DNA from: Paraburkholderia sp. D15 | GTDB taxonomy: Bacteria > Pseudomonadota > Gammaproteobacteria > Burkholderiales > Burkholderiaceae | Length of the DNA: 64,000 bases | Assembly: GCF_029910215.1 (NCBI RefSeq) | Contig: NZ_CP110396.1 | Span: 2,976,001-3,040,000, forward strand | Reading direction: 5' to 3' | Shown here: positions 18,861 through 46,136 of the stretch, piece by piece | How the letters are laid out: every line of letters starts with the position of its first letter | Numbering within the stretch: position 1 is the stretch's first letter | Translations under genes and position numbers: made by a program | Notes under the pieces: generated by a model | What the model was told of the DNA's origin: nothing | What the model saw: only the letters and a program-made list of their open reading frames with translations | Database searches by the model: none

Positions 18861-18886
18861 CCGGGTTCGCGCGGACCGCCGGCCGG

Positions 18887-18892: not shown

Positions 18893-18898
18893 TCCCGG

Positions 18899-31571: not shown

Positions 31572-31626
31572 GGGGGACTATAAGATCGCTTCTGGTTGAT
31601 CAGAGTCCCCATTCTTTGGTGAGCAG

Positions 31627-31671
31627 TCGGGCACTTTCGACGTTCGATGTCGTGGTCTGAATCGTTGACAG
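31627..31671 (+). repeat. Array repeat R1 (45-bp element)
   Basis: Divergent copy: cgggca, ten bases, ttcgat, ten bases, gaatcgttgaca. It lies 56 nt after the helicase stop and marks the left edge of the array. A second partial 3' end (agattcgatgacaatcc) occurs near 31710-31727. Confidence 0.6.
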
Positions 31672-31734
31672 CTGCAAGGCAAAACTGACTGGCAGCGCCG
31701 TCGGCTTCACCAGATTCGATGACAATCCGGGACA

Positions 31735-31986
31735 ATGGCTTGTCTCGGTAGATTTGGAGAGTCCTCTGCCGCCCGTCACAATTCAGTCGAGGCAACCGTT
31801 CGTATGGCCTGCAATCTCGGCTTCAAGACGTATCTCGTTGAGGATGGATGCTTCACGTTCGCCCGGACCGACTGGAACGGGACGCCGCGAAGCGCCGATG
31901 ATATTCACACGATGTCGCTAGCCAACCAGGACTCCGAATACTGCACCGTCACGACTGCGGATCGGGTGTTGGATGCGTCAGGTTGA
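31735..31986 (+). pseudogene. C-terminal remnant of an isochorismatase-family cysteine hydrolase
   Basis: From about 31780 the frame reads HNSVEATVRMACNLGFKTYL, VEDGCFTFARTDWNG and a C-terminal YCTVTTADRVL. This is the conserved second half of an isochorismatase-like hydrolase, including the start of the catalytic-Cys helix region. The N-terminal two-thirds (catalytic Asp/Lys) are absent; instead the frame begins in array-repeat sequence. It is therefore a truncated, almost certainly inactive gene at the array's left boundary. Confidence 0.7.
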
Positions 31987-32031
31987 GGTGTGGGCTTCGT
32001 GCTTTTGCCGCTCTGTGGCGAGGGCGCTGTG

Positions 32032-32076
32032 CGGCCAGAACGGACGTTCGACTTCAATGCATGAATCGTCGACAAT
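32032..32076 (+). repeat. Array repeat R2
   Basis: Close to consensus: cggcca, nine bases, ttcgac, ten bases, gaatcgtcgacaat. It ends 30 nt before the next gene. Confidence 0.85.
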
Positions 32077-32106
32077 CCTACTTACTACGACGGACGACAA
32101 TTTCAA

Positions 32107-32649
32107 GTGCAAGAAATAAACACACAATTTGGATTACTCAACGTTGTGAACGCGCCCGCGTATTCGTTTGAGTCACAAGACAATGTGCAGTCGTACGAGC
32201 TCGAAGTGCTGCTCACGCAGGACCGGTGTACATCCATCTATGGGATAGCGTTGAACGGTACGGGAATAATGGTCGTTGGCGCAGGCGGAGGCTGCTCATT
32301 GGTGAATGATCATTCTGCGCTAGTGCTCGACGACAAGCTTTACCTGGCGGTTGGCGATCACGTCGCCTGCCTTTCTTTATCGTTGCCCCATCGCTTGGTT
32401 TGGTCCACGCAGGTCGATATAGCCACGTGCTTCGGTATCCACTGGAAACATAGTCGGGGTGCCCTCATTTCACATGGGGAATTGGAGATTTCTCGCCTGT
32501 CATTAGAGGGCGAATTGATTTGGCAGGCATCTGGCGCCGACGTGTTCTCTGAAGGATTTCGTTTGCTGCCAGACCACATCGAAGCCGTGGATTTCAATCG
32601 AACCGTGTATCGGCTTGATTACGCGACTGGCGAAGCAAGGGTTAGCTAG
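32107..32649 (+). CDS. Hypothetical protein, beta-rich, possible orphan immunity gene
   Basis: 180 residues, soluble, no signal peptide. The sequence alternates short beta strands (SALVLDDKLYLAVGDHVACLSL, RLVWSTQVDIATCFGIHW, ALISHGELEISRLSLEGELIWQASG), reading like blades of a small propeller. Proteins of this look occur as lone genes near polymorphic toxins, but I cannot name a family. Base composition is lower in GC than the flanking core genes, and array repeats lie on both sides. Confidence 0.6.
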   Translation: MQEINTQFGLLNVVNAPAYSFESQDNVQSYELEVLLTQDRCTSIYGIALNGTGIMVVGAGGGCSLVNDHSALVLDDKLYLAVGDHVACLSLSLPHRLVWSTQVDIATCFGIHWKHSRGALISHGELEISRLSLEGELIWQASGADVFSEGFRLLPDHIEAVDFNRTVYRLDYATGEARVS

Positions 32650-32736
32650 GAGCTATGTCCCACGCTGGACGGCCGCTTTCGGAGAAACCGGCCATCCCTC
32701 TCGGGTCGTCAGGTGCCTATCGCATCGGGCTCCGTC

Positions 32737-32783
32737 CGGTCAAACTTAAGACATTCAAGAGACCCCGTAAGATCCGCGACAAT
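32737..32783 (+). repeat. Array repeat R3 (degenerate)
   Basis: cggtca, ten bases, attcaa, twelve bases, gatccgcgacaat: the order and spacing of the element with several substitutions. It ends 30 nt before the Imm33-like gene. Confidence 0.6.
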
Positions 32784-32813
32784 CATGGCGGGCTAAACAT
32801 ATCTCACGCGATT

Positions 32814-33161
32814 ATGTCCAATGACCAAAGAAGCATTTGCCAGCGATTCGGCGCAGAATACACGCCGCCCGAGGCCAGCCAGAAGATAGGGATATCGCTT
32901 GGATCCCTTGGAAATGTGCCGCTTCACGCGGTTCGGCTATTCCCAAAGAATGGTACATGCGGTTGGTATATTCACGGTGGCGAGTACTCACCGGACGATG
33001 ACTTCTATCAGCCGCTTCATGTCACCCACTTGATCGGGCGCTGTCCGAACATTGTCCCTTACCTGGCACTGCCGCCGGGATGGCGTGTATTGCTGACGCC
33101 GGACTATGAGGATGTCTGGTTCGACGGTGAAGTGCTAAAGGGCGTCACGGATAGTCTGTAA
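32814..33161 (+). CDS. Imm33-like immunity protein
   Basis: 115 residues from the ATG at 32814; the open frame begins further upstream in repeat sequence. Key blocks are CGWYIHGGEYSPDDDFYQPLH, VTHLIGRCPNIVPYLALPPG and WRVLLTPDYEDVWFDGEVL. I associate these with small cytoplasmic proteins annotated as Imm33-type immunity proteins. No cognate toxin is adjacent. It is an orphan gene between two array repeats. Confidence 0.6.
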   Translation: MSNDQRSICQRFGAEYTPPEASQKIGISLGSLGNVPLHAVRLFPKNGTCGWYIHGGEYSPDDDFYQPLHVTHLIGRCPNIVPYLALPPGWRVLLTPDYEDVWFDGEVLKGVTDSL

Positions 33162-33262
33162 CGGCCAGCCTCGGTTTATCGAACCCCGCTTTTCGGGGCG
33201 GCTACGGTCTGACGGGCGATGCGCTGCCTGAGAGTTCATACGTGCGGGCCATTGGGCACGTT

Positions 33263-33307
33263 CGGCCAGGAACGGTCATCCAGCAGTAAAGCTTGGATCG
33301 TCGACAA
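33263..33307 (+). repeat. Array repeat R4 with class B arm
   Basis: Core cggcca...gatcgtcgacaa. It is preceded by a 67-bp arm (33196-33262) nearly identical to the arm of R10 at 37611-37676, containing ggctacggtctgacgggc and gggccattgggcacgtt. Confidence 0.85.
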
Positions 33308-33399
33308 ATGAACATTCCGGTACGGGACCAGTCGCTATCGGGCGACTAAAGAACGCCACTTTCAGGACGATAAACGATATATCACCGTTCTCGTTCTCC

Positions 33400-33702
33400 A
33401 TGCACATGACATCGTCCCTGATGATCCACCCGACCATGCCCGAGAGGCGGGTTAAAAGCGGCTTCAACTGGCCTGCCTTGATATTTGGCACCATGTGGGC
33501 ATATTCCGAGGGATTGATTGTCCAAGGGGGGCGGATGGCCGCGGCCGATGCTGCCACCGGTCTTCTCTGTGTTTGCACCCATCCAGCCTTTCGGATTGCA
33601 GCTTTGCTTCTGTTCGTGACGAAGAACGTTTACTGTGCACGCCACGGCGGCACCTGGATACGCCGTCGATTGCACGATCAAGGGTATCGCGCGCCCAAAT
33701 AG
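33400..33702 (+). CDS. Small membrane protein, DUF2628-like
   Basis: About 100 residues. VKSGFNWPALIFGTMWAYSEG resembles the GFxWPAFFFGxxWA opening of DUF2628 membrane proteins. A hydrophobic stretch (FRIAALLLFVTKNVYCARHG) and the basic ending WIRRRLHDQGYR follow, also as in that family. The middle is shorter than usual, so a deletion derivative is possible. The start at 33400 is uncertain, with no clear ribosome site. Confidence 0.5.
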   Translation: MHMTSSLMIHPTMPERRVKSGFNWPALIFGTMWAYSEGLIVQGGRMAAADAATGLLCVCTHPAFRIAALLLFVTKNVYCARHGGTWIRRRLHDQGYRAPK

Positions 33703-33843
33703 TCACGTATCTGGACTACGACGACGAGCGCTATTTTTAACGGCCGTTTTGGGCAGAGGTGATCGTCTCCTGTGGGGCGGCTGCTGTCGACCGCGGCGGT
33801 TTCAGATTCGCGCAATCCCATGCTGAATGCATGAGGAAGCGAT

Positions 33844-33889
33844 CGGCCAGGTTGAGACGTTCGACACGGTTGCCAGAATCGTCGGCAAT
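33844..33889 (+). repeat. Array repeat R5 with class A arm
   Basis: 46-bp core ending gaatcgtcggcaat, preceded by a 55-bp class A arm (33789-33843: gaccgcggcggtttcagatt...). The arm is almost identical to that of R6. Confidence 0.9.
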
Positions 33890-33996
33890 CTGGGCGCGAA
33901 CGCCGTAAATACGCGTAACAAGAAAATTGGTTCGCCTTGCAAAGACGACTGTCACTCGGCAACCTAATCGATGAGACGGACAGATCGGGGGGAAGC

Positions 33997-34215
33997 ATGA
34001 CAATTCAGGGCGCGATTTTCAGTGCGATGCTATTGGCGGTCGTGCTTTACGCCATGAACCGCCTTAGAGAAAGACGGAGCGTGGCGGATATCACGCCTAA
34101 ACCAAGGAATGTCTCGACGCAGCGTGTCGCAGGCTTTGTGATGGGGTTAGTAGTGTTTACTTTGGTCGTCTATTACCAGCGCCATCAAATAGCCGCAACC
34201 TTTCATATTCACTGA
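33997..34215 (+). CDS. Small two-helix membrane protein
   Basis: 72 residues; GGGGGGAAGC lies immediately before the ATG at 33997. Two hydrophobic segments (IFSAMLLAVVLYAM; VAGFVMGLVVFTLVVYY) flank a basic loop. No family is recognised. Both neighbours are array repeats. Confidence 0.5.
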   Translation: MTIQGAIFSAMLLAVVLYAMNRLRERRSVADITPKPRNVSTQRVAGFVMGLVVFTLVVYYQRHQIAATFHIH

Positions 34216-34373
34216 CAACGCGTCACGCGTTTTGACGAGAGTCGAGGGGCGACGACCCATGCGGTTTGAAACTCTCCTTGCAGACAGTTCGAATGTCAAT
34301 TCCGGGTCGCCTGCTATGGACCGCGGCGGTTTCAGATTCGCGCAATTCCGTGCTGCATGCATGAGGCAGCGAT

Positions 34374-34419
34374 CGGCCAGTTTGGGACATTCGACAGCGA
34401 GCGCTAGATCGTCAACGAT
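34374..34419 (+). repeat. Array repeat R6 with class A arm
   Basis: 46-bp core (ends gatcgtcaacgat) with class A arm 34319-34373. It lies in the 371-bp gap 34216-34586, which holds no gene otherwise. Confidence 0.88.
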
Positions 34420-34586
34420 CGAGCCCACTGTCGCGTCTTTCCCTATAGGCAAAGCGGGCCTAAAGTATCCAGTCCAATTGTCGTTACACAATATGCGCGA
34501 ACAGAACATGTCGCAGCCGCTCACCACGGTTGGTGAAATCCATAGCGTCAAAGCCCCCTAATTCCATACCGCGCGCCATATCTTAG

Positions 34587-35369
34587 ATGCGACGTCCCAT
34601 ACCGCTTTCCCTTTATGCGTATCTCCAGCTCTACGAGGTTGCGTCACTCTTGCTGTACCTCTATCGAGTATTCCTGTTTGAATATCGGCCGCTTCTGACG
34701 TGGCACGATCACTGGCTGATAGAGACTGATTTCTATTTCGTCGCTATTTTTATGCAAGTCCTGTGCGCTCTCACGGCGCTAAAAGGCAGCCGATGGACGC
34801 GGCCTTTTAGCATCACCTGGCTTCTTCTAAAGGCACTTTCTGCAGTCTTTGGCGCACGCTACGGAGCGGCGCATATCCCTTCGCTCGTTTTTATCACAGA
34901 ACTTGTACCCCTCGCCCTGCTATTCGCACCATCCGTTTCAGCCTATTTGAAGACACGCCCGCAGATTCGCGTGGTATGGCCAGGCCTCGGAAGTGTGGTG
35001 AGAATCGTATGCTGCGTGTTTTCAATGGGCGTGTTCAGTCTGTCCTTGCACTTCATGCTTGCCTCCGCTCCGCCGCGCGATAGCCTTGCGAGCGTACGAA
35101 ACGCATTTACAGTGCCCGGTATCGTGTTCCTTGCAACCTTGTTCGGCACTCGTCGCCGACTGGGCGCGATGCGCGAGATTGGATTGGCGTTGGTGGCCTG
35201 TGTGGTATCCAATATCCTTCTCGCCATGGACTTCGCTATCCTTCACGTATTAATTGATCAACTGCACGGCACTTATGTTGTCTGGTGCTGGATCGTCTTC
35301 GCGGTCGCCGGGGTGGGGCTTGTCGTCTATGCCGCTGGGCGGGGGCAGCATCCAGAACCGAAGACATGA
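34587..35369 (+). CDS. Multi-pass membrane protein of unknown function
   Basis: 260 residues with six or seven hydrophobic segments (LYEVASLLLYLYRVFLF, FYFVAIFMQVLCAL, LVFITELVPLALLF, IVCCVFSMGVFSLSL, IGLALVACVVSNILL, IVFAVAGVGLVVYAAG). It has a DUF2569-like feel, but no signature is firm. It is unusually large for this array. The start is the ATG at 34587. Array repeats lie on each side. Confidence 0.55.
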   Translation: MRRPIPLSLYAYLQLYEVASLLLYLYRVFLFEYRPLLTWHDHWLIETDFYFVAIFMQVLCALTALKGSRWTRPFSITWLLLKALSAVFGARYGAAHIPSLVFITELVPLALLFAPSVSAYLKTRPQIRVVWPGLGSVVRIVCCVFSMGVFSLSLHFMLASAPPRDSLASVRNAFTVPGIVFLATLFGTRRRLGAMREIGLALVACVVSNILLAMDFAILHVLIDQLHGTYVVWCWIVFAVAGVGLVVYAAGRGQHPEPKT

Positions 35370-35493
35370 CATAGCGCGTCTCCGATCGCCGTCGGTCAAC
35401 GAGAACGCTGCATATCGGTTCAGGGGGCGCGTGCTGCGGATCGCAGCTGTCTGAGATTCGTGCAGTTGCATGCCGCATGCATGAGACTGCATT

Positions 35494-35539
35494 CGGCCAA
35501 TTGCGGTCGTTCGACGTCGTCGCTCAGATCGTCGACAAT
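35494..35539 (+). repeat. Array repeat R7 with class A-like arm
   Basis: 46-bp core ending gatcgtcgacaat. The preceding arm (about 35437-35493: cagctgtctgagattcgtgcagttgcatg) is a diverged class A arm. Confidence 0.88.
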
Positions 35540-35572
35540 TGGTGTCCCCGGTATCAAGATTACATTTTCTCT

Positions 35573-35968
35573 ATGCGAAGCTTACAGTCATCCCGCTTCT
35601 ATATCGCGGGAAACTCGGCGGAGCCGGTTCTCATACTCGACGGAACAGTCTCCGAGTGGCTCTTCGCGTCGGGATTCTGGAGTCGAATTAACAACTCGTT
35701 GGGCACGATGTTCGACCAATTCGAAGAGGATGACGCTGATGCCACAGTTCTTTTACAAATTGCGTCCGAGCTAGAGGCTTGTATTCGGTCGCTTGAATTG
35801 CAGGACGAAGACACTGTGTGTTTCGTTTGCGGTTGGTCCCTTTCCCTTGGCGGGAACGCCCAGACTATACGAGCTCAGCGGACGGATGTTGTCTCGCAAC
35901 CGGTCACACTACGAAGTCTCTTCGCTTCTACTGCGACCAACGGGGACGCTCTTGAATTCAGTCTTTGA
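35573..35968 (+). CDS. Small hypothetical protein, possible orphan immunity gene
   Basis: 131 residues from the ATG at 35573; the open frame upstream lies in repeat R7. It is a soluble, acidic protein: YIAGNSAEPVLILDGTVSEW, GFWSRINNSLGTMFDQFEED and a C-terminal LRSLFASTATNGDALEFSL. No family can be named. Composition and context match its array neighbours. Confidence 0.5.
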   Translation: MRSLQSSRFYIAGNSAEPVLILDGTVSEWLFASGFWSRINNSLGTMFDQFEEDDADATVLLQIASELEACIRSLELQDEDTVCFVCGWSLSLGGNAQTIRAQRTDVVSQPVTLRSLFASTATNGDALEFSL

Positions 35969-35995
35969 CTGCGGCCTGCTATCCACATAGGCGAC

Positions 35996-36044
35996 CGGCA
36001 GCCACGAAGGGGCGGTCGACACATCAATGCGAATCGCTGCCGAT
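35996..36044 (+). repeat. Array repeat R8 (3-bp insertion)
   Basis: cggcagcca, ten bases, gtcgac, ten bases, gaatcgctgccgat; 49 bp because of three extra bases in the first box. Confidence 0.65.
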
Positions 36045-36174
36045 CGAACGCTGGCGTGTTTGTATCCCTCGTCATTCAGACCAAACGGAGATCTTTCGAT
36101 AGCCAGTAAGTCACGAGGCGAATATCCTCATGGTAGCTGACTCAGACTGTCAGTGAAGAACGAACCCATGACAG

Positions 36175-36510
36175 GTGGTCAACTTGACAACGCAGTTCAA
36201 TCGGTTACTCGAGAAAATTGCTTCACTGCAGCGCCAGTTGAATGATAAACACTTTCTCGAACTTCGTCTTTATCGGCGCGATGCGGCGATTTATCAGTTG
36301 TCTAGTGCGGTCAATCACACAATTGCTTGCTGGTTTAGCGAGAATTATCGACCGATCAGCTTCCTTATCGACCGCGGCAGAGACTTTATGCGCGAGACTC
36401 CGGCCGGCAAACCCGAAACTGCACAGTATTACGGGCTTGCGGAAGAGTTCTTCGCGGTCGTGCTATCCGCACTTGAGATTATCCCGGACGCGGAAGCTCG
36501 CGATGACTGA
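36175..36510 (+). CDS. Hypothetical helical protein, first of a coupled pair
   Basis: 111 residues from a GTG at 36175. It is largely helical and amphipathic (FNRLLEKIASLQRQLNDKHF, AVNHTIACWFSENYRPISFL) with a coiled-coil-like N-terminus. It overlaps the next gene by 8 nt (ATGACTGA), so the two are translated together. The arrangement resembles a toxin/immunity or antitoxin pair, but no family is recognised. Confidence 0.45.
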   Translation: MVNLTTQFNRLLEKIASLQRQLNDKHFLELRLYRRDAAIYQLSSAVNHTIACWFSENYRPISFLIDRGRDFMRETPAGKPETAQYYGLAEEFFAVVLSALEIIPDAEARDD

Positions 36511-36847
36511 AAAATATCGAGTGAGGCTCATGTTCGAGTGGGGCGGTGGTTGCATTTGGGCGGGAGACAAGACCACTCGCGGTGCGTACGGGGTTGGTCC
36601 GATTGAAGACTCGCTGCCGATAGCTGATGAGACGCGCAGAAAGCTTGCGGAAATGACCGCGTGGCATGACCTATCGCTCAACTGGGAATACCCTCCAGAC
36701 CCGGGACCATGGGATGCACAGGAGTACCAGCGCTTTGAAGCGACTGCGGCTGCAATGTGTGATTATCTTCAACAGGAGTTGGGAGACCACTTCGCTGTTG
36801 TTTACGAGAGATTAGGAGTTTATGAGGGACGCGCCGAGAATCTGTAG
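36503..36847 (+). CDS. Hypothetical protein, second of a coupled pair
   Basis: 114 residues from the ATG at 36503. Conserved-looking blocks are MFEWGGGCIWAG, LPIADETRRKLAEMTAWHD and SLNWEYPPDPGPWDAQEYQRF. I recall this LNWEYPPDPGPW pattern from lone small proteins in many bacteria, possibly immunity proteins, with no assigned activity. It is translationally coupled to the gene before it. Confidence 0.55.
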   Translation: MTEKYRVRLMFEWGGGCIWAGDKTTRGAYGVGPIEDSLPIADETRRKLAEMTAWHDLSLNWEYPPDPGPWDAQEYQRFEATAAAMCDYLQQELGDHFAVVYERLGVYEGRAENL

Positions 36848-36959
36848 CCTAGTGCACCCAAAACAGGAAGGTGCGCCTGCGCCTCTCCGCGAATGTCCGC
36901 TGCAGAGAAGACCATTGTCCCTTCCGGGGCGATGACGGTTGGTTACGTCTGGCAAAGAT

Positions 36960-37005
36960 CGGCCACGACGAGTCATTCGACGGGGACGCCAGAATCGTCG
37001 ACAAT
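36960..37005 (+). repeat. Array repeat R9, ending in a start codon
   Basis: Consensus 46-bp core. Its last bases (gtcgacaat) run into a g, so that the ATG at 37004 of the next gene is formed at the repeat end. Confidence 0.88.
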
Positions 37006-37546
37006 GACGGCACGACCAGAACCGCTGCATGCTTACTTGGACGCCATGCCATCGTCCGATCAAATGTCCTCGAACCCCGACGTTGCGTTTGCCTTAAAGA
37101 AAGTAAAACTGGGCATTGGCGTGATGATAGTTGCGTCGCTGTTAGTAGGGTTCGTCGTCTTGTACGTACAAAAACTCGGCGACAAACACGACTATGCGCG
37201 GTACACGGCACCGAACGAGGCCGATCTGGTGCATGCACGAGGGCGAATCACCAGGATATCAAACCACATTCCGTACCTCGAAATCCAACTGGACGATGGT
37301 CGGGATCTGTTAGCGACGTTCCTGGTCTTCCCGCAGCGCGGCGGCCACGACGTCTATGTGCGAGACACCGGCGCTTTCAATCAAGCAAAACTGTCCTCAC
37401 TCGCAAGTTGCGGACGGGCCGAATTCGAGTTTTATCCCATGCACGGCTCCATGATCAGCTACTGGATTTATGGTCTGAAATGCGACGGTACCGACGTGCT
37501 CAGCTACAGAGACACGATGAGTTATCTTGCACTTCGAAAGCCGTGA
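37004..37546 (+). CDS. Single-pass membrane protein of unknown function
   Basis: Up to 180 residues; ATGs at 37004, 37046 and 37064 are all possible. One membrane helix (IGVMIVASLLVGFVVLYV) anchors a C-terminal domain of about 120 residues with beta character (ARGRITRISNHIPYLEIQLDDG, LVFPQRGGHDVYVRD). The domain is probably periplasmic. No family is named. Array repeats R9 and R10 flank it. Confidence 0.5.
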   Translation: MTARPEPLHAYLDAMPSSDQMSSNPDVAFALKKVKLGIGVMIVASLLVGFVVLYVQKLGDKHDYARYTAPNEADLVHARGRITRISNHIPYLEIQLDDGRDLLATFLVFPQRGGHDVYVRDTGAFNQAKLSSLASCGRAEFEFYPMHGSMISYWIYGLKCDGTDVLSYRDTMSYLALRKP

Positions 37547-37676
37547 CGCAAATGCGGAAAGTTGTCACGCTCGAATGGCCGCTGCTGGTTAAACCGGGTG
37601 ACCGCTCCGGGTCGGCTACGGTCTGACGGGCGATGCTCTGCCTGAGAGTTTTTACGTGCGGGCCATTGGGCACGTT

Positions 37677-37722
37677 CGGCCACTTTCGGCCGTTCGACAC
37701 GCATTGTCAGACCGGTAACAAT
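37677..37722 (+). repeat. Array repeat R10 with class B arm
   Basis: 46-bp core ending gaccggtaacaat with class B arm 37611-37676. It lies in the 318-bp gap 37547-37864, which contains no other feature. Confidence 0.88.
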
Positions 37723-37864
37723 GTGGACGTCGAATGCGCCAACTAAAGTAGTAGGGCTTGTCGGGCGCGGATATGGTCTTGGGCAAGGAAGCTGGAACGA
37801 GTCTGATCCGATGCCCATTGCGTTGGCGCAGCAGGCTCACTGATAAGGAACGGACGCAACTCGA

Positions 37865-38266
37865 ATGAGACTCGGTGAACTAAGATCGCTCGGACACAAT
37901 ATTGCGCATTCATTGGCTAGCGGTATCGGCTTAATGATCGGCGTGTACGAAATTTATATATTTTCGGAAGCTTCAGCCGGTGCAGAAGGGTTTGTTTCCG
38001 TCAATTTCCTTGATGGAACAACATTCGGCAGCCCGATTTCTGAAGCAACGCGACGCGCCGTTTGCCTTTACCGTGACGCGCTTCCGGGACTTTGCGATAA
38101 GCACCGCATCGCATTGTCAGACGTCAAGGTGTTGACCGCTCGATACGGAAGCGATCAAGTCTATGGCCCGCATTTTTCAGTACGTGTTGAAAGCATTCTC
38201 GGTAAGACGGCGACTGATCAATACGTCGGGACGTCCGGCAGGTGGTTGCGCCGAATCCAAGCCTGA
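37865..38266 (+). CDS. Small hypothetical protein
   Basis: 133 residues. A moderately hydrophobic N-terminus is followed by YIFSEASAGAEGFVSVNFLDG, ISEATRRAVCLYRDALPGLCD and VKVLTARYGSDQVYGPHFSVRVES. It is probably a small alpha/beta soluble domain. It is not recognised; an orphan immunity protein is plausible from context alone. Confidence 0.5.
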   Translation: MRLGELRSLGHNIAHSLASGIGLMIGVYEIYIFSEASAGAEGFVSVNFLDGTTFGSPISEATRRAVCLYRDALPGLCDKHRIALSDVKVLTARYGSDQVYGPHFSVRVESILGKTATDQYVGTSGRWLRRIQA

Positions 38267-38618
38267 TGTGTAGCCAGAACGTGTCTAATCTGAACCGGTG
38301 GTTTAGCCATCGCGACGAATCTACCGTACTGAAACTCAGAGAAGCGCCTAATATGTGCGGCGGGGCAAGGTCTGCGCCTGACAATTACGCAGACGGTGCC
38401 CAAGACCCTGGGCGCGGTCGGCATTATCCACTGGTGCCCCCTGCGGGGTGTCCGTCCCCCCGCCGCTGGACAAGTATATCGGCATTGTGGCGTTAGCCAC
38501 GCTATGAGAATCGTTGTTGGCGAAGGTCCGCTAACGAGAAAGCTGATCAGACTCGCTTGCTGCCGATCGAACCCTTGCTGGGTTCGGGGTGTGTATGGCA
38601 TTGGCATGAGGCAGAAAA
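38267..38618. other. Stretch without recognisable gene
   Basis: Open frames exist on both strands (for example 38242-38496 and 38396-38689 plus, 38218-38625 minus) but none has family-like blocks or a ribosome site. It may be an eroded cassette. Repeat R11 lies just to the right. Confidence 0.5.
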
Positions 38619-38664
38619 CGGCCACAATCGGCCGCTCGACTTCAGTATCTGAATTGGTGACAAT
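38619..38664 (+). repeat. Array repeat R11
   Basis: 46-bp core: cggcca, ten bases, ctcgac, ten bases, gaattggtgacaat. It is preceded by ggcatgaggcag, matching the end of the class A arm. It ends 31 nt before the YrhB-like gene. Confidence 0.82.
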
Positions 38665-38695
38665 CGGTTCGCAAATACATCCACACTAACATCTG

Positions 38696-38992
38696 ATGGA
38701 ACTTACAGCCGAGCAAGCAAAGGAAGTTGCCCAACGTGCCATCACCAAGGCAGGTTGGGAAGGCTGCGACGCGGTTGTTGTCGACGAATACACCCAAGAG
38801 TTCGATGTCGGCTGGGTCTTCTACTATCAGTCAGCGCGTTTTCTCGAAACGGGAGAACATGGTTTCTCGCTGGTCGGAAACGCTCCCATCTTCGTGAGTC
38901 GCGTGGGGGAGTATTCCGCCTTCATCAGCTACCTTAGACCCGTTGTCGAATCCATCGAAGCCTTCCGCGTCTGCGGAAATGCAAACGCGTAG
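38696..38992 (+). CDS. YrhB/Imm35-like immunity protein
   Basis: 98 residues. LTAEQAKEVAQRAITKAGWE, VVVDEYTQEFDVGWVFYYQSARFLETG and NAPIFVSRVGEYSAFISYLRPVVESIE match the YrhB / Imm35 (PF15567-type) pattern closely. YrhB is a small cytoplasmic heat-stable chaperone-like protein; Imm35 relatives are predicted immunity proteins of polymorphic toxin systems. No toxin is adjacent, so it is an orphan between repeats. Confidence 0.75.
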   Translation: MELTAEQAKEVAQRAITKAGWEGCDAVVVDEYTQEFDVGWVFYYQSARFLETGEHGFSLVGNAPIFVSRVGEYSAFISYLRPVVESIEAFRVCGNANA

Positions 38993-39084
38993 TCAACAAC
39001 GGCACATGCGGCGCAAATTCTTGAGTGACCGTTTTGGGAGGCGAGTGAAGGGCTGCTCGGGGTCGATTTGAGCCACTCCTCATC

Positions 39085-39119
39085 CGGCAACGTTCGATCA
39101 AAAACGATCCGTCGACACC
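39085..39119 (+). repeat. Array repeat R12 (partial)
   Basis: cggcaacgttcgat followed after ten bases by ccgtcgacacc; about ten bases between first and second boxes are missing. Confidence 0.5.
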
Positions 39120-39196
39120 TTAGCCCAAGTCGACGACAGTATCCCGTGGGCTCTATTGAATCGGTAAGCAGCGATGTTCCAAGGAGCGTGAGAAAA

Positions 39197-39532
39197 ATGC
39201 CGAAAACGATCTACTGTTGGCGTTGCCGGATAGATGTACCGATGCTGACTGAAGATGAGTGGCAATTGGTCAATCCTGGAGCTTTGCTCGAGCAGATAAA
39301 ACAATACCGGAACGAGACAGGAGCATCATTGGCGGAGGCCTACCGGAGCGGTACCGGGCTTCCCGCTCTAGTTGCCTACGAACGCATTACGGGATTCCGC
39401 GAAAGTAATGCAAACGCATTGATGCATCACCGCCTCAAGCTATATGGTCCTGCATGCACCGCTTGCAACAAACCGCTTCGCACGCCCTTCGCGAGTTTTT
39501 GCGCTGCTTGCGGGGCAAGTCGCGTGAACTGA
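39197..39532 (+). CDS. Zinc-ribbon protein
   Basis: 111 residues from the ATG at 39197 (AAGGAG upstream). Two Cys pairs open it (IYCWRCRIDVPMLTEDEW) and close it (GPACTACNKPLRTPFASFCAACGASR), which implies a zinc ribbon flanking a helical middle (YERITGFRESNANALMHHRL). I recall this arrangement in small proteins near toxin/immunity clusters; the function is unknown. The longer frame from 39068 runs through repeat R12. Confidence 0.65.
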   Translation: MPKTIYCWRCRIDVPMLTEDEWQLVNPGALLEQIKQYRNETGASLAEAYRSGTGLPALVAYERITGFRESNANALMHHRLKLYGPACTACNKPLRTPFASFCAACGASRVN

Positions 39533-39585
39533 GTCGCACCATAGGTGACGGCATAAAGGGCGGAGTTACCACATCACACAGTAGT

Positions 39586-39630
39586 CGGCCAGGAACGGGC
39601 TTTCGGAATGACCTCACGATCGTCGACAAT
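39586..39630 (+). repeat. Array repeat R13
   Basis: cggcca, ten bases, ttcgga, ten bases, gatcgtcgacaat. It has the same orientation as the others although the next gene points the other way. Confidence 0.82.
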
Positions 39631-39684
39631 TTTCTGGCGTTTTGAGTGTTGCAGTCAGTCGGTAAGGCTCGTCGTTAGATACAT

Positions 39685-39981
39685 TCAATGACGCTGCGCC
39701 ATCAGTCGAGCCAAAGGCGCTCCAATCAGAATGCAAGCTATGCATCCTACGATGCACCACAAAAATAACACGTGAATCCGCGTCATCAGCCTGGATCGAC
39801 GAAGCACCCCCGGATTTGAGCGCACGATGCGATTGATGAATAAACCGCTAAGCGCCGTCAGCAGGGCAAAAATGATAATTCCAGTGGTTCTATGACTCGC
39901 AAGCGAGATCAGGACGCCAAGGGCGCCCACGGCCTGCAAAACGTAAAGGCTAAACCCTGTCATTCTTTGGGCGCTCGTCAT
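39685..39981 (-). CDS. Small three-helix membrane protein
   Basis: 98 residues from the ATG at 39981 with GGAAAACGGG upstream. Three hydrophobic segments (FSLYVLQAVGALGVLISLA, IIIFALLTALSGLFI, IHVLFLWCIVGCIACILIG). No family is recognised. It is the first minus-strand gene of the array, so the array is not a single operon. Confidence 0.55.
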   Translation of the reverse strand: MTSAQRMTGFSLYVLQAVGALGVLISLASHRTTGIIIFALLTALSGLFINRIVRSNPGVLRRSRLMTRIHVLFLWCIVGCIACILIGAPLARLMAQRH

Positions 39982-40023
39982 CCCGTTTTCCTTTTTTTTA
40001 GATTGATGCGTATTGCTGTCTAG

Positions 40024-40206
40024 TCGGATATCGGCTGCCGTACTGTATTTCTTGAACTCGACGATGGAGGCCGTGGTGGACGTTACATCATCGTGCCGAC
40101 CGTCTCTCCCGATTCCGGCGCCTCGGATATTGATATTGCTGCGATGGTGGCCCTTACGTGGATCGTTGACTCGCAACAGGACTGCACGGGCGTCAAGGAG
40201 ATCTGA
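40024..40206 (+). pseudogene. Possible gene remnant (C-terminal fragment)
   Basis: After an in-frame TAG, 60 codons read with normal codon use: VFLELDDGGRGGRYIIVPTV then DIDIAAMVALTWIVDSQQDC, ending TGA. No start codon is available, so if coding it is the tail of a decayed cassette gene. The rest of 39982-40379 shows nothing. Confidence 0.35.
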
Positions 40207-40379
40207 CCATTATCAGCGAGGCTACCAGATCATATGACGAACGACGGGACCAGTACCAGGTAAGTGCACAACGCCGCACATGAACTCATCGCTACCGCGA
40301 GAGAGCTTGGCGGCTAACAAGACTTGCCTGGGGGAATACGAGTACAAGAACACTGTCCCGTACTCCCTTGAAGCGTTAT

Positions 40380-41057
40380 TTACGCTGCGTCAATTTTGAC
40401 GCGATCAAGCACGGGCAACAGCTCTTCGGGGTCAGGCCGGCGCGTATAGTCCGGGTTGACCTCCGCGTAGAGAATTACTCCGTCTTGACCGATGACGAAT
40501 CGCGCGGGCATCGGCAGCGTCCAGCTTGCCTCGCCGTTCGCAACAGCGAGATCGTTTTTGAAAACGGTCTTGTACAGATCCGCCAGGTAGTCCGGCAACT
40601 TGAATCGGATACCGAATGCCGCGGCGACTTCATTGCCCGGATCTGACAGGATGGGGAAGCTTACATGGTTCTCCCGCTGGCTACGTCGACTGTTTGGAGC
40701 GGTCTGCGGTGAAATCGCTACGAGTTGGGCGCCTCGGCTTTCGAGTTGCGGGAGCGATGCCTGCAATGCCTGTAAATCGAAGTTGCAGTATGGGCACCAG
40801 ACGCCGCGGTAGAACGTCATGATCAGCGGCCCGCATGCGAGGAAATCTGCGGACGAATGGGACGTTCCTTCAGCATCATTCAGGGTAAAGGCTGGGGCCT
40901 TGTCTCCCACCTTCAGCGCCCGTCCAGCTGCGCCGGATTCGATCAGTTCGCGTGTGGCGCGGTGCATCGGCTCGTGGATATGTGACGGAGCATTATAAGG
41001 AGGGCCGCCAGCTTCGAAGTTGGCACGGAATGCGTCGAGCTTGTCTTGCAGTGACAT
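40380..41057 (-). CDS. Peroxiredoxin-like (AhpC/TSA family) protein
   Basis: 225 residues from the ATG at 41057 (AGAGG upstream). The thioredoxin-fold peroxidase core holds GDKAPAFTLNDAEG, ITFYRG-type block MTFYRGVWCPYCNFDLQALQ with the peroxidatic Cys and a second Cys three residues on, then QLVAISPQTAPNS. The CPYC spacing is that of the bacterial peroxiredoxin-like subgroup, not the typical 2-Cys AhpC. It is likely a cytoplasmic peroxide reductase, transcribed with the upstream ene-reductase gene (28-nt gap). Confidence 0.88.
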   Translation of the reverse strand: MSLQDKLDAFRANFEAGGPPYNAPSHIHEPMHRATRELIESGAAGRALKVGDKAPAFTLNDAEGTSHSSADFLACGPLIMTFYRGVWCPYCNFDLQALQASLPQLESRGAQLVAISPQTAPNSRRSQRENHVSFPILSDPGNEVAAAFGIRFKLPDYLADLYKTVFKNDLAVANGEASWTLPMPARFVIGQDGVILYAEVNPDYTRRPDPEELLPVLDRVKIDAA

Positions 41058-41085
41058 GAGAAAACCTCTTTCGGGTGATAAAGCA

Positions 41086-42186
41086 TCAGGCAGTTGCCCA
41101 ATCGGTGTAAAAGGGATAGTCGAGATAACCGCGGTGATCGCCGCCATAGAATGTCGAGCGGTCGTAGGCGTTGAGTTGCAGGTTTTTCCGGAATCGTTCC
41201 GGGAGATCCGGGTTCGCGAGGAAAGCGCGTCCGAACGCGACTGTGTCGGCCGCACCCGATTCAATGATGGCTTCGGCGCTGTCGCGATCGAAACCGCCGG
41301 CTGCCATGATTGACCCCTGGAAGATTTCACGCAGCATGGCGGTGGCGACGGGTTGTGCACCGTCCTCGATTTCCTCGGTGCCTTTAATGCGCGGCTCGAT
41401 GACGTGAAGATAGGCAAGGCCGAAGCGGTTCATCGCTTCTGTCACGTAGGAGAATGTCGCTTTCGGATCGCTGTCGAACATCCCGCCAAATTTTCCGCTC
41501 GGCGAGACCCGAACGGCGGTTCGATTCCCACCCCAGACAGATGTCATGGCTTCCACGACTTCAAGAAGGAACCGGGCGCGCTTCTCCATCGTTCCGCCAT
41601 AAGCGTCGGTTCGGATGTTGCTGCCGTCTTGCAGGAACTGATCGGCGAGATAGCCGTTAGCCGAGTGCAACTCGACGCCATCGAACCCGGCTTCCATCGC
41701 ACGTTCCGATGCCCGGCGAAACTGTCCGATGAGCTCAGGTATCTCGTCGAGTTCGAGCGCACGCGGCATCGCAAATTCGATCTCTCCATTCCTGGAGAAA
41801 CCAACGCCCTCGGCGCGCAGCGCGGAAGGGGCGATGGGCGTTTCGCCGTCGATGATGTCGGGGTGAGACTGGCGGCCGCTGTGCCAAAGCTGGAGAAAAA
41901 TAATCGAGCCAGCGGCATGCACGGCGTCTGTGACCCTACGCCATCCCGCGATCTGATGATCACCATAAATCCCCGGAGCACCGGCATACGCAATCCCGCG
42001 CCTTGAGACTGGCGAAGCTTCGGCAATCATGAAGCCGCCCTTGCTGGCGCGCTGCCGGTAGTAATGAACCATCAACTCCCCGGGTATGTCGCCCGCCTCG
42101 GAGCGCATTCTCGTCAGGGGAGCCAGAACCACACGATGGGCAATCTCGTAAGGACCGATTGCCGTTGGACTAAAAAGCTTGCTCAT
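41086..42186 (-). CDS. Old yellow enzyme family NADH:flavin oxidoreductase
   Basis: 366 residues from the ATG at 42186 (a GTG at 42192 is alternative). Family motifs: LAPLTRMRS, LQLWHSGRQSHPD with the substrate-binding His, GFDGVELHSANGYLADQFL, and PDTVAFGRAFLANPDLP-like block near the C-terminus. It is an FMN-dependent ene/nitro-ester reductase, NemA-like, cytoplasmic. It is divergent from a LysR gene that probably controls it, and paired with the peroxiredoxin downstream. Confidence 0.95.
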   Translation of the reverse strand: MSKLFSPTAIGPYEIAHRVVLAPLTRMRSEAGDIPGELMVHYYRQRASKGGFMIAEASPVSRRGIAYAGAPGIYGDHQIAGWRRVTDAVHAAGSIIFLQLWHSGRQSHPDIIDGETPIAPSALRAEGVGFSRNGEIEFAMPRALELDEIPELIGQFRRASERAMEAGFDGVELHSANGYLADQFLQDGSNIRTDAYGGTMEKRARFLLEVVEAMTSVWGGNRTAVRVSPSGKFGGMFDSDPKATFSYVTEAMNRFGLAYLHVIEPRIKGTEEIEDGAQPVATAMLREIFQGSIMAAGGFDRDSAEAIIESGAADTVAFGRAFLANPDLPERFRKNLQLNAYDRSTFYGGDHRGYLDYPFYTDWATA

Positions 42187-42255
42187 GAACACTCACCGAG
42201 TTGATGTACTGAGCTAGCAAGTTAAGTTATTCCATGAAAAAGAAGTAGACTGCGA

Positions 42256-42265
42256 TTATCGATAA
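42256..42265. promoter_or_regulatory. Palindrome in the LysR/ene-reductase divergent region
   Basis: ttatcgataa is a perfect 10-bp palindrome within the 104-bp divergent gap. LysR proteins bind dyads with T-N11-A; this is the best candidate site here. Confidence 0.45.
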
Positions 42266-42290
42266 CATTCATTCCACTGGAGAATGACTT

Positions 42291-43196
42291 GTGGACAGAT
42301 TCACCACCATGGAAGCATTCGTGCGCATCATCGAAACGGGTTCCTTTTCGGCAGCAGCGCGCCAACTCCGGGTTGGTCAGCCCTCTATATCAAAAGCGAT
42401 TGCGCAGCTTGAAGAACGACTGGGAACGCGACTGCTCTCACGCTCGACACGAGGGCTATCGCCGACTGAAGCAGGGCAAGGGTTTTATGAGCGGGCGCGG
42501 CGCGCGCTCGAAGAAGCAAACGAAGCGGACCTGGCAGCAACTGGAGCAGGGACTGGACTGACAGGGCGTTTGCGCTTCAGTGCAACGGTGACGTTTGCCC
42601 GGCTACACGTCATGCCGGTGCTACCCGCGTTTCTCGAGGCACATCCTGCACTTACCGTCGAAGCAATTCTTGACGACCGCAGCGTCGATCTGATCGAAGA
42701 GAACATCGACATTGCGCTGCGGATGGGCGATCCAAAGTCGGTGACGGTAATCGGGAAGCGGATTGCCACGTCAAAGCGCGTGGTCGTTGCGACTTCCCGC
42801 TATCTCGATCGGCATGGCACGCCTGAGCGGCCGGCCGATCTACCTGACTTCCCGGCGGTCATCTATGCGCAAGGCGGCGGAGGTGAGACATGGACTTTCA
42901 GGAATGGCGCAAAGTCGGAGGTCGTGACGCTCAAGAACATGATCAGCTCCACCGCAGCGGAGGGCGTGCGTGAGGCCGTTTTTGCAGGTATGGGATTGGC
43001 TGTCGCCACGGAGTGGATGTTCCAGCCGGATATCGATAACCATCGCGTGGAAACGGTTCTTAGCGATTGGACGCTTCCCTCACTGGATCTTTGGGCCGTG
43101 TATCCAGCAGGGCGTCAAACTACTGCGAAGGCTCGCGCCTTTGCTGCTTTCATCAGTGAGTGTCTGGCAAAAACACCTTTTACGCCTGTCGGGTAG
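42291..43196 (+). CDS. LysR-family transcriptional regulator
   Basis: 301 residues from a GTG at 42291 with GGAGA 8 nt upstream. The N-terminal HTH is canonical (FVRIIETGSFSAAARQLRVGQPSISKAIAQLEERLG). The substrate-binding domain runs from about 90 to 295 (GRLRFSATVTFARLHVMPVL, VDLIEENIDIALRMGD). It belongs to the CrgA/DhcR-type branch often found divergent from oxidoreductases, here the ene-reductase/peroxiredoxin pair. The inducer is unknown. Confidence 0.93.
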   Translation: MDRFTTMEAFVRIIETGSFSAAARQLRVGQPSISKAIAQLEERLGTRLLSRSTRGLSPTEAGQGFYERARRALEEANEADLAATGAGTGLTGRLRFSATVTFARLHVMPVLPAFLEAHPALTVEAILDDRSVDLIEENIDIALRMGDPKSVTVIGKRIATSKRVVVATSRYLDRHGTPERPADLPDFPAVIYAQGGGGETWTFRNGAKSEVVTLKNMISSTAAEGVREAVFAGMGLAVATEWMFQPDIDNHRVETVLSDWTLPSLDLWAVYPAGRQTTAKARAFAAFISECLAKTPFTPVG

Positions 43197-43368
43197 GCTG
43201 ACGGCCTCTTTCCTGGTTGCATCCACGATTTGGCGCGCGAGTCTGCCGATGCATTTTTGAAGTGAACGTCTGCTGTTGGGGAGCTGGACCGTGTCTTATG
43301 GGGCGCATGCTGCCAATTGCGACGGTTACGATTCGTGCAGTTCCATGTCGTTGAAATGAGGCAGCGAT

Positions 43369-43400
43369 CGGCCAGGAGGCGACGTTCGCCGGATGGTGAC
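43369..43400 (+). repeat. Array repeat R14 (3'-truncated) with class A-like arm
   Basis: cggcca, ten bases, ttcgcc, then ggatggtgacg. The class A-like arm precedes it (about 43306-43368, with gattcgtgcagttccatg and atgaggcagcgat). It lies in the 342-bp gap 43197-43538 with no other gene. Confidence 0.75.
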
Positions 43401-43538
43401 GTATGGCGGAACCTCGATGCGGTTCGGTCATTCGAGACATTTGATGTCGGTTAAGCGGCCCGAGTCTTGTCTGTTTGCGTTTGTACCCTTGCATCTAAGT
43501 AGAGATTTCAAGCTTCGGGCGCTGCCGCTCTTTGATCG

Positions 43539-45173
43539 CTATGGCGTCTCCGGCTTACTCTTCGAAGTATGTGCCCAAATAGCCCATGTCATCCGTTCGG
43601 CATATTCTTCTAGAAGATCGCGGTCAGTAAGGCGCTCAAGGCGTTCGAAGTCGGACGACCCGGCCATATTCGTGAGCAACTGCGCGCGCGTTGCATTTTT
43701 ATGCGCATCAAGCAACCACATAAACGTCTTGAACGGCGTCTCGATCGTTTGCTTTGCGGAGGGATCAATACGTTCAAAGAACGTTGTTGGATGCCGTCTA
43801 TAGGCCTGCAACTCTGCTGCTGAAAGGGGGACGCTTACAACGACTTGCCGCCCGTCCTGCAGCTGAAAAATGCACGTTGCTGATCGTTCAGGTTCGGAGA
43901 CAATTCCTTGAAGCAGCTTGGCCGGTGTCGCCTCACCTTCTGGCTCTACTTGGACCTCGTACCACGAGCCAATTGTTAGCCGCGCTTCGTTTGTCGAAAA
44001 CGCCAACTCAGGGGCCTCTCCGTCGAACGTTGATGGCACTTCGCTGTGATCGCGCAGCGATCTGGCGAGGTCATGGATATCCTGATGAGCTCGCATAGCG
44101 GCGTATGCTTCTCTCAGGGAAGGGAACCCCGAGTCAAGCTTGAAATCTGGGATCTGGAATCCTTCGGCGAGTATGACAGTGCGTCTCCCTGCACCTTCGA
44201 GGTCTCGGTCTGAAGGCATGTTCGTGAGGAAGACATACGCCGCGGGAAGCGGATGGCCGTTGAGGTCACGCCCTTCAAACCGGCGCAAATCGTTGAGTGC
44301 TTGCCGCATGAAGCCCGGCAGCGCGTCGTCCATTTGATCATCTGGAACTCCGACGTCAAGAAACACGATTCGTGAATGAGCGGCCTGTTTCCTCAGGGCG
44401 CCTTGGAGACGTCTTCCGAGCCGAAACTTAAGTGTGCCTGTTGCATCGCTCCGGTTACGATGCTTCGCTTCTACTGAATAAATATTGCCGCTTGTTTTGC
44501 AGGTGGCGACAAATTCGCAGTGAGTTGCGGAGCGGTCATCTTCATCTTCAAACACAATGTCGAATCCCGACCGAATCATTGCGGCAGCAACGTACGTTTC
44601 ATATCGAGCGCCGGGGAACATGTCCAGGTTCTTGAGTCGGCCGACCAGCTTCTTCTGCAACTCGGCATTGTGGTCCAGTGCGTACAGGTCGTATGCAAGG
44701 CGAAGCCATGCAGATGATGCACCATTCCCTTCGACCTGCACAACGGAGTCACCCGTTAAACCGGAACGCCGCTGCAAATTGCAGATACTGTCATACCACT
44801 GGAGAATCGGATGTCGATCGCTCAATGGCTTCTTGAGTTCGGCGTTTCCCCACGCGGGATCCAAGACGTCCCTGAGATAGTCCCCTAGGAAGTCGTGGAA
44901 CGTCTTGCCCTTAATGTAATAGAGCTTGTTTCGTACGGCAACGATTCTGCGTCCGCCAATCTCCGCACTGATGATCGGCCGGCCTAGCCCCTGTTGAGCG
45001 ACGCGTTGGGCCTCCTTGGCCTTAGCTTTCGCGCTTGCCTCAACAACGGACTTTGCCAGCCCTGGTGGCAAAGTCTGGCGCGCTGGTTCGGCCGCAATCC
45101 ATCCATGGCAATGCTTATATTTCTTCCCGCTCCCGCATGGACAACGTTCATTGCGTCTGATTTTCTCAGCCAT
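43539..45173 (-). CDS. SEC-C motif protein with PD-(D/E)XK-like nuclease domain
   Basis: 544 residues from the ATG at 45173 (GGGGG 7 nt upstream). The N-terminus is a SEC-C zinc motif (RRNERCPCGSGKKYKHCHG). Around residues 190-240 lies YETYVAAAMIRSGFDIVFED, then THCEFVATC and IYSVEAKHRN. The spaced acidic residues and the E-A-K fit a PD-(D/E)XK endonuclease core. A further 300 residues are alpha/beta without a named domain. Size, composition and location in an accessory array suggest a defence or mobile-element nuclease. No partner gene is evident. The nuclease assignment is by motif only. Confidence 0.6.
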   Translation of the reverse strand: MAEKIRRNERCPCGSGKKYKHCHGWIAAEPARQTLPPGLAKSVVEASAKAKAKEAQRVAQQGLGRPIISAEIGGRRIVAVRNKLYYIKGKTFHDFLGDYLRDVLDPAWGNAELKKPLSDRHPILQWYDSICNLQRRSGLTGDSVVQVEGNGASSAWLRLAYDLYALDHNAELQKKLVGRLKNLDMFPGARYETYVAAAMIRSGFDIVFEDEDDRSATHCEFVATCKTSGNIYSVEAKHRNRSDATGTLKFRLGRRLQGALRKQAAHSRIVFLDVGVPDDQMDDALPGFMRQALNDLRRFEGRDLNGHPLPAAYVFLTNMPSDRDLEGAGRRTVILAEGFQIPDFKLDSGFPSLREAYAAMRAHQDIHDLARSLRDHSEVPSTFDGEAPELAFSTNEARLTIGSWYEVQVEPEGEATPAKLLQGIVSEPERSATCIFQLQDGRQVVVSVPLSAAELQAYRRHPTTFFERIDPSAKQTIETPFKTFMWLLDAHKNATRAQLLTNMAGSSDFERLERLTDRDLLEEYAERMTWAIWAHTSKSKPETP

Positions 45174-45450
45174 AAGCATGCCCCCATGCCGACTCGTTCC
45201 AAATATGTTCGCACATGTTCCTGCTCATTCGAGCAAGTAGGTCTTCGCGGACGCACTGAGCGCTGGCGACGAGCAAGTTAAACAGTCGACGACTGACTGT
45301 CCTACCGCGCGATCCCGTTGGCCGGTAACATAGTGAGTGCCTGCAGCGCAGCGTGCGAATGTCTCATATCGGTGGGTCAGCGGACCGACGCCCGTGGTGA
45401 CTCAGTGACTCGAACGGGTCGATGACTGTCCACCATGCCCATAGAACAGT

Positions 45451-45497
45451 CGGCCACCTTCGATTGCTCATTGCGACTTTTCAGATTCGCGCCAACT
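45451..45497 (+). repeat. Array repeat R15 (rearranged)
   Basis: Starts with cggcca...ttcgat but, in place of the normal 3' box, continues as ttttcagattcgcgccaactgcc, which matches the start of a class A arm. It looks like a recombination product of two copies. It lies in the 356-bp gap 45174-45529, which holds nothing else recognisable. Confidence 0.5.
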
Positions 45498-45529
45498 GCC
45501 CTCGATACCCATCTCGGTCAAATATCTTA

Positions 45530-46009: not shown

Positions 46010-46136
46010 AAGCTAGTAGGAGGCATTTGCGCATGACCATCCGCAACCCCGCCCAGCAAGGTCGGTTGACTGGCCGTCCTCAGTCAGAGTCCATAGCCAG
46101 GGATGGCGGCCATGTTCACCGATTCGAGCAGTCGAG

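Follow-up and report, generated by a model that had tools for sequence, protein, structure and literature searches.

A likely array of mobile gene cassettes with two-box, attC-like sites in Paraburkholderia sp. D15

Paraburkholderia sp. D15 carries, downstream of a helicase gene, a series of short genes separated by co-oriented copies of a conserved element of about 46 bp. We analysed this locus in a stretch of 64,000 nucleotides (contig NZ_CP110396.1, positions 2,976,001 to 3,040,000), hereafter the window; it corresponds to G000:C2:2976001-3040000, where G000 is the source genome and C1, C2 and C3 are its three replicons (8.3 Mb). Stretches fetched around elements or recombinase genes, mostly from other genomes, are given L-numbers. 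The last full site lies ~7 kb before a gene at 46868, which a preliminary description of the window assigned to a type VI secretion system. The GC content of the array is 54.7%, and that of the window beyond 31600-46800 is 62.8%. No Rfam family or tRNA was detected in the window.

The preliminary description had proposed an array of at least thirteen 45-49 bp elements, one per intergenic gap, all on the plus strand. A sequence-only profile (R1), trained on nine window copies of the 46-bp element, recovered the nine within 31627-39632 at E-values of 2.2e-13 to 1.4e-10, scores that they reach by construction as the training set. These copies start at 32032, 33263, 33844, 34374, 35494, 36960, 37677, 38619 and 39586. 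At 31627 R1 gave a weaker match (21.3 bits), and at 43369 one of 14.8 bits that covers only model positions 2-29. Five copies are degenerate or partial (31627, 32737, 35996, 39085 and 43369). Two of them had been listed as regular: 32737 falls under the R1 threshold and has a homologous cassette with a clear site in another genome (L151), and 35996 is degenerate and missed by R1, with a site at the corresponding place in a relative (L147). The copy at 39085, already described as degenerate, was likewise missed by R1, and the degenerate copy proposed at 45451 was supported by no analysis. The array so delimited, nine strong copies bounding cassettes and five degenerate or partial ones, is all on the plus strand as described. 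The element is not a product of chance, because the 14-mer GAATCGTCGACAAT with up to three mismatches occurred 24 times compared to 8.36 expected (0 of 100 shuffles reached 24) and because R1 picked up further clusters absent from its training set. The features of the array are as follows.

31627-31673, plus strand: first array site, degenerate 3' half (R1 21.3 bits), 55 nt past the helicase stop codon; homology of relatives ends near that stop codon
32032-32076, plus strand: site 3' half with CGGCCA, CGGAC..TTCGAC and promoter-like GACAAT (R1 44.1 bits, E 2.8e-12)
32689-32708, plus strand: 5' boxes of the 32737 site (box score 10/14, which chance occasionally reaches), ending 28 nt before it, with a 28-nt loop between
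32737-32783, plus strand: degenerate site 3' half opening the Imm33-like cassette; homologous cassette with clear site in L151
32814-33161, plus strand: Imm33-like cassette gene (PF24719, E 1e-37 on the frame 32655-33161); a start downstream of the site is presumed
33194-33262, plus strand: type A loop/spacer of the 33263 site; 33194-33268 is 95% identical to 37608-37682
33263-33308, plus strand: site 3' half (R1 42.3 bits)
33738-33843, plus strand: 5' repeat TAACGGCCGTTTT, degenerate GGGGCGG box and type B loop of the 33844 site, from repeat comparison and site alignments
33844-33889, plus strand: site 3' half (R1 47.5 bits)
34290-34373, plus strand: 5' boxes CGAATGTCAATTCCGGGTCG and type B loop (box score 11/14; repeat D1)
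34374-34419, plus strand: site 3' half (R1 45.6 bits)
35494-35539, plus strand: site 3' half (R1 47.6 bits) of the cassette with open reading frame (ORF) 35573-35968; cassette also in L147, L187 and L201, and partly in L148
35996-36041, plus strand: degenerate site, at the same place as the L147 site, missed by R1
36891-36931, plus strand: 5' repeat GAATGTCCGCTGC and box pair (box score 10/14), 28-nt loop to 36960
36960-37614, plus strand: entire mobile cassette with CGGCCA half-site, ORF 37004-37546, 5' repeat at 37573 and GGGTCG end; 99.1% identical to G000:C2:550311-550965
37615-37676, plus strand: type A loop/spacer, absent from the second copy of the preceding cassette in the in-genome comparison
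37677-37722, plus strand: site 3' half (R1 39.4 bits)
38619-39066, plus strand: entire mobile cassette with Imm35 gene 38696-38992, ending GGGGTCGA; second copy at G000:C1:3173k (L058)
39085-39131, plus strand: degenerate site, 19 nt 3' of the GGGTCG box of the pair 39046-39065, missed by R1
39586-39630, plus strand: last full site 3' half (R1 38.7 bits)
43264-43394, plus strand: partial site with 5' repeat, type B loop and CGGCCA..CGACGTTCG, promoter-like part lost (R1 14.8 bits; repeats; site alignment)

The 46-bp element, which had been taken for the complete repeat, is the 3' half of a larger two-box, attC-like site with further boxes before a spacer. The full site reads CGAnnGaCCG-n4/5-GGGTCG-loop-CGGCCA-n5-CGGaCgtTCGAC and ends in the promoter-like TCGAC-N18-GACAAT. 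The conserved 46 bp read CGGCCA-n5-CGGaC(g/a)tTCGAC-n12-ATCGtcGACAAT. TCGAC and GACAAT are 18 nt apart in 77 of the 80 copies fitting this expression, the other 46 of the 126 copies having been excluded from the spacing figures. The ORF start follows CGGCCA at a median of 87 nt (94 of 110 sites), and the last part of the element may be a promoter. The 5' repeat GAAYGNCCGCTTT was found at 10/13 or better upstream of 89 of 239 sites, and the box pair CGAnnGnCCG-n4/5-GGGTCG at 11/14 or better at 58 of the 239, compared to 1.4 in base shuffles. The loop from GGGTCG to CGGCCA has a bimodal length distribution in these 58 sites: 16 have a loop of 28-29 nt and 19 one of 62-64 nt. The loops form recurrent families, of which one is represented by four members and another by two in the window region, and the same loop was found before different cassettes in other genomes.

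The 5' and 3' boxes are mutually complementary. RNAalifold, unprompted, predicted a GGGTCG/CGGCC inner stem in both loop-length classes, using alignments of all 15 short-loop sites and 26 of the 31 long-loop sites with a 5' repeat at 10/13 or better (five were excluded by hand). The named structure had 83.6% and 84.8% paired cells, far over slid versions, an excess that is biased in its favour as the structure counted was partly derived from the same alignments. The 26 long-loop sites showed some covariation beyond shuffles (1 of 500). When six sites were folded as single RNA copies, the structures were inconsistent (z -2.1 to 1.8). Complementary box pairs around a variable loop, as in attC, are present (58 of 239 sites against 1.4, with the stem found de novo), with a folding signal that is itself weak. 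The preliminary description had seen no recognisable attC features; this is right for the attC consensus sequence and wrong for the two-box layout.

Cassettes recur as near-identical units. A second copy of window segment 36960-37614 stands at C2:550311-550965 (99.1% identity over 655 bp), and one of the Imm35 cassette (38619) at C1:3173k. The identity in these two in-genome pairs runs from (C)GGCCA to GGGTCG(A), with unrelated flanks on both sides. No target duplication was seen by eye at these two moves. Among all fetched loci we found 52 homologous cassette pairs, which are not independent, and examined the edges of the 24 with at least 82% identity. In 15 of the 24 pairs, both members have their left edge no more than 5 nt from CGGCCA, and in all 24 the distance is at most 18 nt; the wider offsets reflect partly a mis-set anchor and partly short similarity at the spacer end, and two pairs diverge inside the element. 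The upstream 60 nt were unrelated (z<2) in 23 pairs, with z>2 in one. By eye, 11 right edges fell at the next CGGCCA or within the element opened there, 6 at GGGTCG and 7 elsewhere, these last representing gene divergence or the segment end. A trivial edge arising from the likeness of the elements is countered by the closest pairs, which share 17 or 18 of the 18 variable element positions up to CGGCCA. An empty site was not found: the gene flanking the L058 copy had no relative in 55 other genus genomes, and in the comparison of L143 with L220 only the left flank was kept. By comparison, these alignments show that cassettes are exchanged as precise units at conserved sites, between loci and between species, with edges at the inner boxes of the site. 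The locus had been likened to a gene-cassette array, and the near-identical units with edges at the element and unrelated neighbours, within the genome and between species, bear this out. Homologous exchange at the repeats had been offered as one shuffling route; the lack of similarity on either side of a moved unit speaks against its simple form, and the other route offered, an unknown recombination system, now has a candidate enzyme of ~208 aa.

The element is clustered rather than scattered, as the cassette interpretation had required. R1 detected it at seven further places in the source genome, four of them clusters (C2:547-550k, C1:1678-1680k, C1:2174-2176k and C3:435k) and three single matches (C1:3173k, C3:108k and C1:1153k). 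It was present in 21 of 23 chosen genus genomes including the source genome (E<=1e-3), in 11 of 25 genera of the family (92 of 200 genomes; E<=1e-4), and in 2 of 274 class-level genomes under stricter filters, one of the two being the source genome. The 242 sites in 70 loci form 147 pairs of neighbours no more than 3 kb apart; both members lie on the same strand in 142 of these, and the median spacing is 758 bp. A strict pattern matched 118 stretches in named genomes, 115 of them in genera that we take to belong to Burkholderiaceae; the genera were Burkholderia, Paraburkholderia, Caballeronia, Trinickia, Pandoraea, Cupriavidus, Pararobbsia and Ralstonia. The other three (L278, L320 and L330) come from Rathayibacter, an unplaced Proteobacteria bin and a Bacteroidales bin, and may represent chance, mis-binning or transfer. 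One site-like element with a CAGCGACCACTTTGG repeat upstream was also observed in a 2.3-Mb genome from another family of the class (G208; L159 1480-1560).

Content at the locus is not invariant among relatives. No element was found within ~17 kb after the helicase gene in any of 20 relatives, the best helicase matches among 58 genomes. These loci are largely collinear with one another, and they cease to be homologous to the window around the helicase stop codon (window 31562-31573). The block that follows the helicase in the relatives was not found elsewhere in the window in the five checked, which may reflect rearrangement or an island edge.

Most array genes in the window had no Pfam match, the clear matches being Imm33-like (1e-37) and Imm35 (1e-9). 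We scanned the first 148 of 212 ORFs picked mechanically from the 242 sites, of which 25 yielded no ORF; ORFs over 450 aa and duplicates were excluded. The commonest family among the 148 was GNAT acetyltransferase (10), followed by Imm35, glyoxalase and S51 peptidase (2 each), and many families occurred once. Seven PADLOC models matched one cassette ORF each. The description of the genes as partly immunity-like thus holds for two window genes, and GNAT proteins are commoner in the wider pool. On Paraburkholderia sabiae plasmid pPs24235_1 (L188 8599-14819), a small-gene array lies directly upstream of VgrG, DUF4123 and DUF2235 genes.

As had been noted, the window contains no integrase: none of the 19 PF00589 matches of the source genome lies inside it, and the nearest is ~14 kb from an element. 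Tyrosine recombinases linked to such arrays were found in some loci of relatives. Searching six-frame ORFs with phmmer in 153 loci, which include 80 of the 118 strict-pattern loci, we found one ~208-aa tyrosine recombinase family in 9. Its members match PF00589, the only Pfam domain of the protein, at E 9e-10 to 3e-22, are 63-93% identical to the query and conserve the putative catalytic residues R59, K87, H156, R159, H182 and Y191. The nearest NCBIfam models are those of Xer proteins, far under their cut-offs. The family is present in 46 of 200 family genomes (E<=1e-40) and 10 of 274 class-level genomes, and at least 8000 database proteins belong to it at E<=1e-30. An earlier scan of 140 ORFs of 200-560 aa near non-window elements (161 qualified, 21 excluded for size) revealed no tyrosine recombinase among the 25 of 216 families shown; one of the 140 was later recognised as the 208-aa enzyme.

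In relatives, the recombinase gene typically sits at the loop position of a site. We examined 30 loci chosen by the enzyme alone, having excluded 8 of 38 that were pre-chosen for the element; the 38 are not independent. GGGTCG (or 6/7 to GGGTCGG) preceded the recombinase start by 62-74 nt in 23 of the 30, the loose CGGCCA+R' pattern followed the stop within 90 nt in 21, and both were present in 17. Among 302 other ORFs of array loci, the corresponding counts were 12 and 32. R1 at 19.7 bits or more matched ten times in the 105.6 kb of the recombinase loci (5 of 30 loci), compared to 23 times in the 8.3 Mb of the source genome. In L380, the cassette end common to the L140/L144 pair runs straight into the recombinase leader. 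The element occurred in 35 of 46 genomes with the family and in 57 of 154 without it (p=3.5e-6), a comparison that assumes both 200-genome draws to be identical and ignores phylogeny. The small recombinase was also observed in other families of the class (L399-L411). There, 3 of 13 copies (L401, L409 and L402) were directly followed by GCGG(A/T)CATT boxes, and in the remaining 10 these boxes were absent or further away.

We consider it likely that the locus is an array of mobile gene cassettes which works like an integron array without being one, and whose cassettes are moved by the 208-aa recombinase or its kin. Each cassette would start with a site 3' half, CGGCCA-n5-CGGaCgtTCGAC, which bears the promoter-like TCGAC-N18-GACAAT and is followed by one small gene and often by the 5' repeat GAAYGNCCGCTTT and the boxes CGAnnGaCCG-n4/5-GGGTCG. 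Consecutive cassettes would together form a two-box imperfect palindrome, as in attC, around a loop that stretches from GGGTCG to the following CGGCCA and mostly measures 28-29 or 62-64 nt. A tyrosine recombinase would cut in or beside the CGGCCA and GGGTCG boxes, where we infer the cut positions to lie. The best candidate for this role would be the ~208-aa family, encoded in relatives typically between GGGTCG and CGGCCA. Because no member was found in the source genome, the window array may be a recombinase-less remnant that is now silent or depends on an enzyme acting in trans. The identity of the moving enzyme, its cut positions in the boxes, the promoter activity and the folding of the sites are all proposals.

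Several observations weigh against this interpretation. The 5' boxes are clear in only 58 of 239 sites. The pairing is mostly conserved sequence, with covariation not beyond shuffles in the 15 short-loop sites, and over 117 sites the mean folding z was modest (-0.71, with controls at 0.12 and -0.16). Such weak covariation would be expected if the two halves of a site come from different cassettes, but it also leaves the folding a proposal. The edges lie at the inner boxes, and in integrons they lie at the outer box. The 208-aa family was found in only 9 of 153 loci, two of which (L257 and L294) lack flanking boxes, and among the 30 recombinase loci 13 are missing at least one box. The source genome yielded no member at E<=1e-40, and since a cassette is present there twice at 99% identity, its movement would have required an enzyme acting in trans or some other source. 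About 14 of the 153 loci contain other tyrosine recombinases (L145, L147, L148, L187, L189, L190, L208, L219, L221, L223, L226, L230/L281, L308 and L317), so another enzyme is possible. The AlphaFold model of the recombinase was unusable (mean pLDDT 47.8).

Three other explanations were weighed. The units could be small non-autonomous transposons with terminal inverted repeats (CGGCCA..CGGACRTTC and GAAYGNCCG..GGGTCG), mobilised by a transposase and separated by spacers of target DNA. The ends of the units that stop at GGGTCG do form imperfect inverted repeats, the spacer stays behind, and 4 of 140 ORFs near arrays encode DDE transposases. However, 142 of 147 neighbours share one orientation, the spacers fall into recurring families and two favoured length classes, the shared unit reaches the next CGGCCA or further in 11 of 24 pairs, and by eye no flanking duplication was seen at the two in-genome moves. 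We regard transposition as improbable. A promoter or regulatory repeat of horizontally acquired genes, with blocks shuffled by homologous recombination, would fit the fixed TCGAC-N18-GACAAT spacing (77 of 80 copies) and the regular distance to the ORF start (median 87 nt, 94 of 110 sites). Such a repeat would leave unexplained the sharp CGGCCA/GGGTCG edges with unrelated flanks, the 5' boxes and the recombinase gene between them, and we think it very improbable.

We give slightly less credence still to a degenerate true integron array (CALIN), with divergent attC sites and cassettes moved by IntI. The two-box layout, the co-oriented single-gene units and the mixed cargo, including GNAT acetyltransferases, do resemble integrons. 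The attC boxes of integrons have the consensus RYYYAAC and GTTRRRY. Here the R' box is CGGaCgtTCGAC rather than GTTRRRY, with its G and first T present in 43% and 53% of 80 copies, and the edges fall at CGGCCA/GGGTCG. The TIGR02249 cut-off for IntI (265 bits) was exceeded in none of 23 genus genomes including the source genome, where scores are given by pieces and the two best pieces of one protein total ~195 bits. Because IntI and attC sequence both failed to appear, we do not class the array as an integron. The proposed cassette system shares with integrons and CALIN its co-oriented single-gene cassettes, its two-box imperfect palindromes with a variable loop, exchange at the sites and a tyrosine recombinase as the suggested mover. 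It differs in having a promoter-like element inside each cassette and a ~208-aa candidate recombinase at the loop position.

Two described systems are similar in part. The rAID (recombinase-associated acquired interbacterial defence) loci of Bacteroidales contain a tyrosine recombinase and co-oriented short genes with conserved intergenic motifs (PMC12247911), together with some immunity genes. Co-oriented short genes with a conserved intergenic motif are likewise present here, with two immunity-like genes in the window and tyrosine recombinases in some loci of relatives. Unlike the rAID loci, the arrays studied here belong to Burkholderiaceae, are dispersed with several per genome, often have no detected recombinase and carry mostly non-immunity cargo. 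Polyimmunity loci (Zhang 2012, PMC3482391) are strain-variable arrays of small genes in one orientation, several adjoining XerC/D-type recombinases. The shared orientation of small genes is common to both. In contrast, the present arrays have a promoter-like site per gene and defined mobile edges, and matches to Imm families are limited to 2 window genes. Full-text searches of open-licence papers revealed no account of this pairing of enzyme and site, and of the papers listed for the motif strings none was, by title or abstract, about such arrays.

Three repeats of other kinds were observed. Window 9696-9732 is a self-complementary segment of 37 nt (97% inverted match to itself). L147 contains ~219-bp tandem repeats in a long gene adjoining a type I secretion cluster (17714-19001). 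In L139, a 1323-bp segment, possibly an insertion sequence, occurs twice within an array in inverted orientation (8113-9435 and 11621-12943; 99.8% identical).

Together, these results lead us to favour, with some reserve, the view that Pseudomonadota have a second, separate gene-capture system, comprising a minimal ~208-aa tyrosine recombinase, promoter-bearing single-gene cassettes and two-box sites of its own, with the recombinase gene in the loop of a site. If so, a second form of integron-like gene capture exists, and it would provide a test case for a recombinase without a recognised N-terminal core-binding domain acting on attC-like sites. Many short 'hypothetical' genes of Burkholderiaceae would then be members of a single mobile pool, with boundaries that can be recognised and with their own promoters, so that cassettes could be delimited in any genome and the functions of their cargo predicted.

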